In this document: positions 2,989-62,308 of the stretch, piece after piece
Layout of the letters: each line of letters starts with the position of its first letter
Position numbering within the stretch: position 1 is the stretch's first letter
Source of the DNA: Streptomyces sp. AM 4-1-1
Lineage (GTDB): Bacteria > Actinomycetota > Actinomycetes > Streptomycetales > Streptomycetaceae
Reading direction: 5' to 3'
Length of the DNA: 64,000 nucleotides
Assembly (NCBI RefSeq): GCF_029167625.1
Contig: NZ_CP119145.1
Coordinates: 3,224,001 to 3,288,000, forward strand
Program-made: the position numbers and the translations under genes
Notes under the pieces: model-generated
What the model saw: the letters and a program-made list of their open reading frames with translations, nothing else
Told to the model about the DNA's origin: nothing
The model's database searches: none

Positions 2989-3020
2989 ACCGGCCCGTCC
3001 CCCGGGTGATTCCCCAGCCG

Positions 3021-59636: not shown

Positions 59637-60256
59637 GCCACCGAGTGTAGGCGAGATCGACCACTGGTCCGAATTCGGGATACGCCATGGGGCCACTGTG
59701 CGAACGCATCGGAAGACGCTCCCGGGGTGACTCCGGGTGGTCACCCGGAGTGATCGCTTCCGCGCTGGGAGCGGGTCCGGAGGGGGCCACAGGGCCCTCG
59801 TCGCCCGGATTGCGGGCGGGTCGGGCCCTTCGGCCGTACGAGCCGACGAGGGTGGCCGGGGGTCGTTCGAGGTGCCCCAGGAAGGGCCTGAAGGGCTTTC
59901 GATCGAACACGTGTTTGGTGTCGAGCCTCACATGCGGTGGCATCGCGGGCCGCACCCGACAGGTTTGCGATGGGGCGGTATGGACCGTTGCGTGCGTCGG
60001 GATCGGTCGGGGTGATCGGACCTGGGCGGGGTCGATCAGTCGATCGGCCGGAGACGGCCGGAGTTGGCCGGAGACGGTCGGAGTTGGCCGGAGACGATCG
60101 GACCTCCGGGATCGGTCGTGTCTGGCCGGGAGCGGTGGTATCTGACCGGGAGCGGTGGTGTCTGACCGGGATCGGTCGCGAGCGATCCCGGGCGGGGCCG
60201 TCCGGACTGCGGGACGCCATTGACAGGCGCATGGCCACTTGGCAGGCTCCTGGCCC
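59637..60256. other. 620 bp between purF and the leader peptide; short tandem repeats
   Basis: No supportable gene. At about 60050-60110 a 20-bp unit of the GCCGGAGACGG..GGAGTTG type occurs about three times, followed by repeated GACCGGGAGCGGTGGT-type units to about 60180. The purF promoter must lie near the left end. Confidence 0.55.
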
Positions 60257-60352
60257 ATGCAGCCCCTCGGTGATCACACGGTCACACTGGTGGAGCGCCG
60301 CCACGTCGATCTGGGACGTGTGGCGAGCGCCATCTGTCGCCGCGCCCGGTAG
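60257..60352 (+). CDS. Leader peptide upstream of the sulfatase gene
   Basis: 31 residues starting MQPLGDHTVTLVE and containing RRHVDLGRVASAICRR, the signature of Streptomyces leader peptides found before sulfur-metabolism operons; the Cys codon near the end is characteristic. Ribosome progress through this Cys would depend on charged tRNA-Cys and could control a downstream terminator. GGCAGG lies upstream. The gene is too short for routine prediction. It is 475 bases before the sulfatase on the same strand. Confidence 0.8.
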   Translation: MQPLGDHTVTLVERRHVDLGRVASAICRRAR

Positions 60353-60441
60353 CCGTTCCGAGGCGCGCCGCCCCCGGAACTCCACGGGACCGGAGTGGAA
60401 TCGGAACCGGATCGGGAGCGAAACCGGAATTCAGAATCGGG

Positions 60442-60503
60442 CCGAGGGTCATATCCGGGGCTCCGAGGGTCATATCCGAGGCTCCGAGGGTCGTACCGAG
60501 GCT
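60442..60503 (+). repeat. Three 21-bp tandem repeats between leader peptide and sulfatase
   Basis: CCGAGGGTCATATCCGGGGC-type units at 60442-60462, 60463-60483 and 60484-60503. They lie in the leader-peptide to sulfatase interval and may affect the mRNA structure there. Confidence 0.75.
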
Positions 60504-60826
60504 CCGTTCGGCCACGTCCCGCGCCCCGCGTTCCTGAGGCCGTGGGCCGCCGCGATCCCGGTCGGTCCCTGATCTCGCACTTCGGTCCCTGGTGGCCGGC
60601 CTCCTGATGGGCAGCTTCCTGGTGGGCGGCCCTCCGATCGCCGGCTGACGGGGACCCCTTCCCCTCGGCCCCGGAACGATCCCCGATCTACGCGGTTCAC
60701 GGTTCACGGTTGCCAGGATCTCCGCGCCCGCGTCCCGCGCCTCCCTGCCGACGCCTCACGCCCCCTCTCCCCGTAACGCCGTACCCCGTCCTCCGCCGCC
60801 ACGCCGCGGCCCTGCCTGGAGCAGCC

Positions 60827-62308
60827 ATGACGACGCATGACGTCCGCGACCCCCACGACGACCGTAATTCGAACAAAAGTACGAATTCAGCGTGGACCAG
60901 ACGCGCCTTCGGCACCGCAGTCGGCGCCACCGCCGCCACCGCCGCCGTGGGACTCCCGGCCACGACCGCCTCGGCGGCCACCGGCGGCTCCGTCGCCGAC
61001 GTGCCCCGTGAGCGGCCCTTCCGTGCCGCACGCGGGAAGCACTCCCGCCGGCCCAACATCCTCTTCATCCTCGGCGACGACCTGGGCTGGGGCGATCTCT
61101 CCTCGTACGGCTCACCCCACATCCACACCCCGAACCTGGACCGGCTCGGACGGCAGGGCGTGCGGTTCACGGACGCGTACGCCGGGTCCGCGACCTGCTC
61201 CCCCACCCGGTTCAGCCTCTACACCGGCCGCTATCCGGGCCGCACCAAGGGTGGTCTCGCCGAGCCCATCGCCGATCGCTCCGTGGGCCTCGAACCGACC
61301 CATCCGACCCTCGCCTCGCTGCTGCGGGACGCCGGGTACGCCACCGCGCTGATCGGCAAGTGGCACTGCGGCTACCTGCCGGACTACAGCCCCACCAAGT
61401 CGGGCTGGGACGAGTTCTTCGGCAACTTCGGCGGCGCGCTGGAGTACTACTCCAAGCTCGGCCTCGGCGGTGAGTACGACCTGTACGAGGGCGACGCCGA
61501 ATACCACGACCTGCGCTACTACACCCGCGTCCTGACCGAGCGGGCCCGCGAGTACGTCCGTCGCGACCACGACAAACCGTGGCTGCTCAACCTCAACTTC
61601 ACCACCCCGCACTGGCCGTGGATCGCCGAGGGCGACACCGCCGAGAGCGCCGAGATCGTCCGCAGGATCAAGGCCGGCGGGTTGCAGGGCCTGTTCCACC
61701 AGGACGGCGGCTCGGTGGAGAAGTACAAGCAGATGGTCGAGGACCTGGACCGTTCGGTCGGCGAGGTGCTGAAGGCGCTGGAGCGGTCCGGGCAGGCGGA
61801 CGACACCCTGGTGTTCTTCGCCAGCGACAACGGCGGCGAACGCTTCTCGTACCAATGGCCGCTGTCCGGCAACAAGAGCTCGCTCCTGGAGGGCGGCATC
61901 CGGGTCCCGGCCGTGCTGCGCTGGCCCGCCAGGATCGACCCGCACCAGGTCAGCGAGGTGCCGGTGTTCTCCCCCGACTGGACGGCGACGCTCCTGGAGC
62001 TGGGTGGCGCACGCCCGCACCCCGGCTATCCGCTGGACGGTGTCAGCCTCGCCGGGTATCTGCTGCGCGGCGAACGGCCCGCCCAGCGCGACCTGTTCTG
62101 GCGGGTGCGCGGGGAGCGGGCGCTGCGGCGGGGCGAGTGGAAGTACTACCGGGGCAGGAGCGGCGCCGACCAGTTGTTCCGGCTCTCGCACGATCTGCGG
62201 GAACAGGCGGACCGGGCGGCCGCCGAGCCCCGGCTGCTCGCCGAGCTGCGGACCTCCTGGGAGCGGACGGACGCCGAGCTGCTGCCGTACCCGGCCCGCG
62301 ACGCCTGA
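60827..62308 (+). CDS. Secreted Tat-dependent sulfatase (formylglycine type)
   Basis: 493 residues. The N-terminus has a twin-arginine signal (TRRAFGTAVGATAATAA) with cleavage near ASA. The catalytic domain starts RPNILFILGDDLGWGDLSSY (metal-binding Asp pair). ATCSPTRFSLYTGR contains the C-x-P-x-R formylglycine site, followed by LIGKWHCG, TPHWPW and FFASDNGGER. It hydrolyses sulfate esters outside the cell, probably to obtain sulfate. GGAG precedes ATG 60827. The upstream leader peptide suggests sulfur-starvation control. Confidence 0.93.
   Translation: MTTHDVRDPHDDRNSNKSTNSAWTRRAFGTAVGATAATAAVGLPATTASAATGGSVADVPRERPFRAARGKHSRRPNILFILGDDLGWGDLSSYGSPHIHTPNLDRLGRQGVRFTDAYAGSATCSPTRFSLYTGRYPGRTKGGLAEPIADRSVGLEPTHPTLASLLRDAGYATALIGKWHCGYLPDYSPTKSGWDEFFGNFGGALEYYSKLGLGGEYDLYEGDAEYHDLRYYTRVLTERAREYVRRDHDKPWLLNLNFTTPHWPWIAEGDTAESAEIVRRIKAGGLQGLFHQDGGSVEKYKQMVEDLDRSVGEVLKALERSGQADDTLVFFASDNGGERFSYQWPLSGNKSSLLEGGIRVPAVLRWPARIDPHQVSEVPVFSPDWTATLLELGGARPHPGYPLDGVSLAGYLLRGERPAQRDLFWRVRGERALRRGEWKYYRGRSGADQLFRLSHDLREQADRAAAEPRLLAELRTSWERTDAELLPYPARDA

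Follow-up and report, generated by a model that had tools for sequence, protein, structure and literature searches.

The window analysed here, 64,000 nt from Streptomyces sp. AM 4-1-1, carries a short open reading frame upstream of a sulfatase gene, which raises the question of whether translation of the frame governs the sulfatase and, if so, what is being sensed. A preliminary description of this DNA had proposed a frame of 31 codons with the signature of Streptomyces sulfur-gene leader peptides. That frame is present (Table 1), encodes MQPLGDHTVTLVERRHVDLGRVASAICRRAR followed by a stop codon, and contains the motif RRHVDLGRVASAIC. The signature is borne out by NCBIfam model NF042934 (“putative leader peptide”), which matches over positions 1-19 of its 19 with 39 bits against a curated cutoff of 27 (E = 2.3e-8 in a search of the strain's whole genome); at E values up to 10 this model has matches in 10 of 14 control genomes, none of them above the cutoff. 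The leader falls below the 45-bit cutoffs for the mycobacterial leaders Ms4527A (NF042936; 29.9 bits) and Ms5788A (NF042933; 19.1 bits), and an Rfam scan of the region gave just two sub-threshold microRNA matches. The best reading of the compared sequences is an attenuator in the form of a leaderless, cysteine-responsive upstream open reading frame (uORF), which combines a rigid peptide motif with a single UGU as its sensor codon, and we place the probability that translation of the leader frame imposes cysteine-dependent control on the sulfatase at about 0.75. Neither the leader family nor cysteine attenuation in actinobacteria is new; the additions made here are a conserved sulfatase branch, a leaderless promoter, natural cases of loss or fusion in which the leader is bypassed, and a rule for the position of UGU.

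Table 1. Features of the leader-sulfatase locus, in coordinates of the window
Feature	Position	Strand	Details
-35 element TTGACA	60220..60225	+	from sequence
-10-like hexamer CAGGCT	60243..60248	+	17 nt past the -35 element, 8 nt before the ATG
Leader ORF	60257..60352	+	31 codons plus stop; NF042934 (cis_reg_atten) member by profile score
Peptide motif RRHVDLGRVASAIC	60296..60337	+	from alignment of 75 leaders
Candidate sensor codon UGU (Cys27)	60335..60337	+	nine residues after Asp18
Spacer	60353..60826	+	474 nt
Three 21-bp repeats	60442..60506	+	this strain alone
Most pyrimidine-rich 60 nt of the spacer, candidate Rho-binding stretch	60741..60800	+	75% C+T
GGAG, sulfatase ribosome-binding site	60818..60821	+	from sequence
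Sulfatase	60827..62308	+	493 aa; Pfam PF00884, E = 2.7e-59
CSPTR motif	61196-61210	+	by eye from sequence

The downstream gene is the formylglycine sulfatase that it had been taken for, with a PF00884 domain and a CSPTR (CxPxR) motif, and the genome has three matches to PF03781, the formylglycine-generating enzyme family. The enzyme has a Tat-type signal (TRRAFG), recognised by eye, and is probably exported. Of its relatives with a solved structure, carrageenan sulfatases and an N-acetylgalactosamine-6-sulfatase score highest.

Relatives of the sulfatase were sought in one genome per species across 84,980 species; 179 were confirmed, and the best 80 of these were analysed. An RHVDL-type leader lies upstream of the sulfatase in 74 of these 80, or in 74 of the 78 readable loci, L095 being cut by a contig end and L086 containing a run of N. 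Streptomyces albidoflavus is among the species with the locus (L079). The leader frame, whose comparison across orthologous loci had been proposed as a check, is thus conserved among the best 80 of the 179 relatives. Four readable loci lack the leader. At L111, some 190 nt before position 3001, the leader's ATGCAGCCT start runs straight into the sulfatase signal sequence, a natural fusion in which the leader's start codon serves the sulfatase and which probably yields a leaderless sulfatase mRNA, and L126 and L128 have kept a TTGACC promoter and lost the leader frame. We count these natural bypasses, by fusion or by loss of the frame, in favor of a cysteine-sensing uORF. No recognisable leader motif was found in the upstream region of L125; where the motif usually stands, an ATG precedes a long hairpin (GGGCGACACGACGC/GCGTCGTGTCGCCC). 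In a second set of relatives, which shares some members with the first, the leader is present before 8 of the 10 orthologues of nearly full length; what is left of it at L008 is nine residues long and retains only the ALC(UGU)R end, and L011 has none. The leader is also present at L012 (G006:C6), where the match covers only the last (C-terminal) third of the sulfatase and the gene looks decayed. A motif search of the 18 loci of more distant sulfatases (L013-L030) did not find the leader.

When the window's leader and the 74 others are aligned on their ATG, TTGAC begins at -38, -37, or -36 in all 75; A is found at -13 and T at -9 in 64 leaders each, and both AnnnT within one base of these positions and C at -1 are found in every one. 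The S. lividans promoters described in the part of PMC8079986 considered here have the consensus elements TAnnnT and nTGACn, with 17% of transcripts leaderless, and CAGGCT fits the former but for its first T. With TTGAC and AnnnT at a fixed distance from it in every one of the 75 leaders, the ATG itself is the probable start of transcription, and the mRNA would be leaderless. The letters that had been read as the leader's own weak ribosome-binding site are those of the conserved -10-like hexamer, so that a ribosome-binding site for the leader finds no support. With regard to a possible transcription start past 60352, a consensus promoter scan of positions 59700-60900 reported no site, and it misses the leader's own promoter too; in 16 of 73 loci the whole spacer spans just 58 to 100 nt. 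Two more tandem arrays, a 10/20-bp array of the GGCCGGAGAC type and a 20-bp array of the CCGGGAGCGGTCGTGTCTGA type, lie 5' of the leader promoter at 60046-60178.

Related leaders also precede other genes. The strain's genome has seven leaders above the NF042934 cutoff, including the one in the window, and two below it, making eight further leaders altogether, as well as a weak match at L174. At least one NF042934-type leader occurs in 40 of 41 genomes (this one and 40 relatives) and in 6 of 119 genomes spread over the phylum (this one included). We assembled 69 non-sulfatase leaders, 60 of them hand-picked from the leader listing of relatives (33 other genomes, sulfatase leaders omitted) and 9 from the strain's own genome. 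Their first genes were matched by BLAST to a set of 19 representatives, all but one of them (18) belonging to a Pfam or NCBIfam family; here, as for the nearby genes and control regions below, genes were called crudely, from the length of the ORF and its GC content at each codon position, and behind spacers of >500 nt the named gene may not be the first. On this basis, 37 of the 69 precede a gene with a clear role in sulfur or cysteine metabolism: ThiS/CysO-like proteins (14), cysteine dioxygenases (9), sulfite/nitrite reductases (6), rhodaneses (4), SsuE FMN reductases (3), and SsuA (1). The other targets are luciferase-like FMN monooxygenases (10), NMT1 substrate-binding proteins (4), symporters (3), ABC permeases (2), ROK regulators (2), SBP_5 proteins (2), a flavin reductase (1), and an SCO4226-like protein (1); the tally also holds one representative without any family match and six leaders without an assigned gene. 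Within the strain's own genome, clear sulfur genes lie behind three of the eight further leaders (L166, L167, and L170). The proposed coupling of leader to sulfatase and its link to cysteine are supported both by the conservation described above and by these kinds of genes.

The cysteine dioxygenase loci (L207, L233, L237, L238, L240, L241, L243, L245, and L250, with Pfam matches for L207 and L240) encode enzymes that consume cysteine, and these targets (9 of 69) fit poorly with induction by starvation. Leaders of the RRVHMDLVRYAGCVC type (RRVHVDL in L233) lie 69 to 127 nt before cysteine dioxygenase-type genes. NF042934-type leaders also precede ROK-family regulators at L171 (by Pfam) and L258 (by BLAST to L171), possibly linking cysteine to another regulator.

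Eight residues are invariant in the 75 sulfatase leaders: R15, H16, V17, D18, L19, R21, A25, and C27. Synonymous codons vary at these positions (four for R15, three for V17, and three for A25), and this constancy of residues despite varying codons indicates that the peptide itself is selected. The codon for C27, nine residues after the Asp (D+9), behaves differently. TGT stands there in 74 of the 75 sulfatase leaders and TGC in L122, against TGT in 13 of 73 other Cys codons within the same leaders, in 87 of 961 Cys codons of nearby genes, and in 0 of 136 in the 73 sulfatase genes, where all 136 are TGC; since related sequences are not independent, the significance of such codon contrasts, as of the spacer C+T contrasts below, is overstated, and the within-leader contrast is the safer one. 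The 69 non-sulfatase leaders all have Cys at D+9, encoded by TGT in 67 and by TGC in L260 and L262; of the 64 further Cys codons that they contain from the motif onward, 9 are TGT. All 15 leader rows examined in a phylum-wide search have TGT at D+9, L272 repeating L241. UGU would be read through wobble by one tRNA-Cys (GCA). A bias beyond UGU is seen at S24, which is AGC in 73 of 75 sulfatase leaders, and at R21, which is CGT in 62 of 75 (window leader and L052-L131). No published statement of the UGU-at-D+9 rule was found in the openly available papers searched, a coverage that excludes the key mycobacterial paper.

Some of the codon data count against a cysteine-sensing uORF. From RHVD on, 18 of the 75 leaders have one Cys codon, 52 have two, and 5 have three; the leader in the window has one and has no run of adjacent Cys codons. 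By classical standards a single codon is a weak starvation signal, and the single-Cys leaders, together with the dioxygenase targets, are set against this reading, as are the UGC codons at D+9 in L122, L260, and L262. In leaders with Cys runs (eight loci, with no row for L284 and L288 and with L282 and L283 repeating L268 and L267), D+9 is TGT in five of six loci (TGC in L285), D+8 is TGC in five of six, and D+7 is TGT in all six, so that D+9 is not the sole place for UGU there; this too counts against it. The distance from the Cys codon to the stop codon is 1 to 5 codons in the 75 leaders.

Known systems offer partial parallels. The leader resembles NF042934 over the whole model, for which the output considered here gives no mechanism; the present analysis adds a sulfatase as target, a leaderless promoter, and the UGU rule. 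With the mycobacterial polycysteine leaders Ms4527A and Ms5788A, as far as Canestrari 2020 is cited elsewhere, it shares a leaderless uORF and an [IV]D[LF]xR core, the leaderless start being judged here from the promoter spacing to the ATG; in genomes matching NF042936 or NF042933, UGU occupies D+9 in five of six loci, as it does in the window's family. The mycobacterial leaders have a run of Cys codons, whereas relatives of the window leader mostly have one or two; the window leader itself scores below both curated cutoffs. Leaderless Cys-rich uORFs before cysA2 and other mycobacterial genes, for which the authors propose attenuation, are likewise similar in their start and in having Cys codons near the end; they have clusters of these codons, and no sulfatase target is noted in the portion of that report considered here (PMC4633059), unlike the single Cys and the sulfatase in the window. 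Predicted Cys leaders of mycobacterial cys operons, without terminators and with poly-pyrimidine motifs weakly proposed as Rho sites (Seliverstov et al., PMC1262725), resemble the window in these respects and differ in that their Cys codons form runs close to the end of the frame and that, in the portion considered, no sulfatase target is noted. The cysS uORF of Rhodobacterales (uORFC-8-2) also places Cys codons in a uORF that controls a cysteine gene, but as described in the part of PMC8632094 considered here it has two tandem Cys codons, mostly UGC, and an intrinsic terminator. The S. lividans “metL” leader MSTTSDRTPATEATTTPGARCMCRRMCAF, filed as methionine dependent in Table 4 of PMC8079986, has three Cys and may be a cysteine leader.

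The leader, the promoter position, the invariant motif with its fixed spacing, the UGU, the pyrimidine-rich spacers of relatives, and the sulfur targets, all taken from the comparison, suggest the following mechanism. RNA polymerase would start at the leader AUG, and ribosomes would load straight onto the 5' end. When cysteinyl-tRNA is ample, the ribosome would pass the UGU at codon 27 and come off at the stop codon; the pyrimidine-rich RNA beyond it, left untranslated, would allow transcription to be ended before the sulfatase, most likely by Rho. When cysteine is short, the ribosome would wait at UGU27, aided by the RHVDLxR segment in the upper exit tunnel. The usual ribosome footprint places the leading edge of a ribosome waiting there at about the stop codon, and the downstream RNA could thus be protected or remodelled. 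The sulfatase, probably exported, would then be made and sulfate freed. We infer the waiting at UGU27 and the role of the peptide, as well as the direction of the response; the last is derived from the target genes, with the cysteine dioxygenase group as an exception. Sulfatase conservation, promoter spacing, sulfur targets, UGU bias, and spacer C+T are all counted for this reading.

Rho is a plausible output step, to which we give slightly less than an even chance. In the tna operon, a ribosome stalled near the stop codon of TnaC keeps Rho off the following RNA. The proposed mechanism resembles this in that a stalled ribosome near the stop codon would shield RNA from Rho, and it differs in that TnaC arrest is induced by a ligand and involves a different peptide. 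A sulfatase start was assigned behind 73 of the 75 leaders, which gives spacers of 58 to 535 nt (median, 141 nt; 58 to 100 nt in 16 of 73). The spacer in the window is present as described, although it is 474 rather than 475 nt long. The C+T fraction of the spacers is 0.679 versus 0.509 in 108 control upstream regions, and a 40-nt stretch with at least 80% C+T occurs in 55% of spacers versus 1% of controls; the spacers of non-sulfatase leaders average 0.617 (60 of 69 spacers entered). C-T exchanges number 400 to 227 purine-pyrimidine changes in one alignment and 581 to 607 in a second. The C-rich, G-poor untranslated stretch expected after the leader of a Rho-dependent attenuator appears strong across relatives, and the window is its weakest case: the first 60 nt of its spacer have a C+T fraction of 0.47, the lowest of 73 and counted against the proposed reading, and the part of it richest in pyrimidines is found close to the sulfatase start. 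The three 21-bp repeats of the preliminary description do exist, but a period-21 repeat was found in 0 of 72 other spacers examined, which rules them out as common regulatory parts and suggests that they probably lie outside the mechanism.

An alternative output step, unlikely but still to be weighed seriously, is that the RNA hides the start codon or the ribosome-binding site of the sulfatase until ribosomes on the leader open it, as in the mycobacterial polycysteine leaders, which provide the precedent (Canestrari 2020, as cited elsewhere). Folding was modelled for 62 or 63 of the 73 loci, those whose spacer did not exceed 260 nt and whose features could be recognised. With a ribosome footprint at Cys27, the modelled unpaired fraction of the ribosome-binding site rises from 0.198 in free RNA to 0.241, against 0.201 with footprints at two upstream positions (62 loci). 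However, a footprint at the stop codon gives 0.243 too, so that the effect is not specific to Cys27; its P value is 0.055, with changes of >0.15 upward in 11 loci and downward in 3, and blocking the entire leader as far as Cys27 gives 0.215 in the model. Covering the whole leader opens the start region from 0.477 to 0.529 (P = 0.002; 63 loci, modelled), but the Cys27 footprint leaves the start codon unchanged (0.477 to 0.474) and lowers it from 0.427 to 0.365 in a clade of 12 loci. Overall, unmasking by a ribosome at Cys27 is small or absent in the models, with a possible pairing in that one clade.

That clade (A3; L072, L074, L077, L080, L081, L085, L092, L103, L104, L105, L112, and L115) would favour masking, and we count it against the reading proposed above: base pairing is predicted between its RHVD codons and the region around the sulfatase start, and between CUCCG and the GGAG site of a ribosome-binding-site hairpin. 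Such leader-to-start pairing has so far been predicted in A3 only. The consensus fold of the 12 loci has a covariation term of -0.91, with changes on both sides in 4 of 35 pairs, and the term is -0.06 in another 10 loci. Across all 73 loci, pairing of the leader core with the start is no better within a locus (-20.0 kcal/mol) than between loci (-20.04 kcal/mol), 2,802 of 5,000 permutations being as good, and spacers that vary from 58 to 535 nt also speak against a common masking structure. Conserved stems were therefore rejected, the pairing in the clade not being borne out across loci. The last folding and pairing checks on the output step, which rest on models, point both ways and leave the odds given for Rho and for masking as they are.

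A different sensor is also conceivable, although quite improbable. Free cysteine or a derivative could act as a ribosome ligand that arrests the nascent peptide, in which case the signal could be excess. TnaC senses tryptophan in this way, through ligand-induced nascent-peptide arrest. The eight invariant residues at a fixed spacing to the Cys codon, with their varying synonymous codons, would suit such a mechanism, as would the sufficiency of one Cys, and the cysteine dioxygenase targets would suit a signal of excess. Against this, the other assigned targets acquire or assimilate sulfur, the nine-residue leader at L008 has kept just its ALC(UGU)R end, and the constancy of UGU points to codon decoding.

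Selection at the peptide level would also be expected if the frame made a functional small protein unrelated to sulfatase control; we regard this as very improbable, since its relatives precede a wide variety of genes, frequently sulfur genes, and have in common only the core and its UGU. Least probable of all is a classical attenuator with an intrinsic terminator and antiterminator stems, as known or predicted for Streptomyces trp, ilv, and leuS leaders (in the portions of PMC1262725 and PMC8079986 considered here): the alternative stems that the preliminary description proposed to look for were not found in the window, a scan of positions 59700-60900 gave no terminator-like site, the window's leader RNA folds less stably than its 20 shuffles (z = +2.5), spacers of 58 to 80 nt leave little room, and the terminator-like sites in 11 of 73 spacers, found by a similar rule, are in no clear excess over 41 of 365 shuffles.

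Returning to the cysteine-sensing uORF, we offer one broader proposal, tentatively and as something that may well prove too general. The RHVDLxRxxxAxC leaders of actinobacteria might all be versions of one sensor, common to the whole family and relying on a single, near-obligatory UGU nine residues after the Asp, in which the peptide primes the ribosome and wobble decoding of UGU is rate limiting; the mycobacterial polycysteine leaders would then be an elaboration, and extracellular sulfatases a new branch of the regulon. If so, one codon would report the cysteine supply without a run of cysteines. The leaders named “putative leader peptide” would gain a testable mechanism, in which changing UGU to UGC (same peptide) versus changing RHVDL would separate codon sensing from peptide sensing. 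The UGU-at-D+9 rule would serve as a cheap filter for finding such leaders. For the organism, the scavenging of sulfate esters, probably extracellular, would be linked to the cysteine status of the cell.
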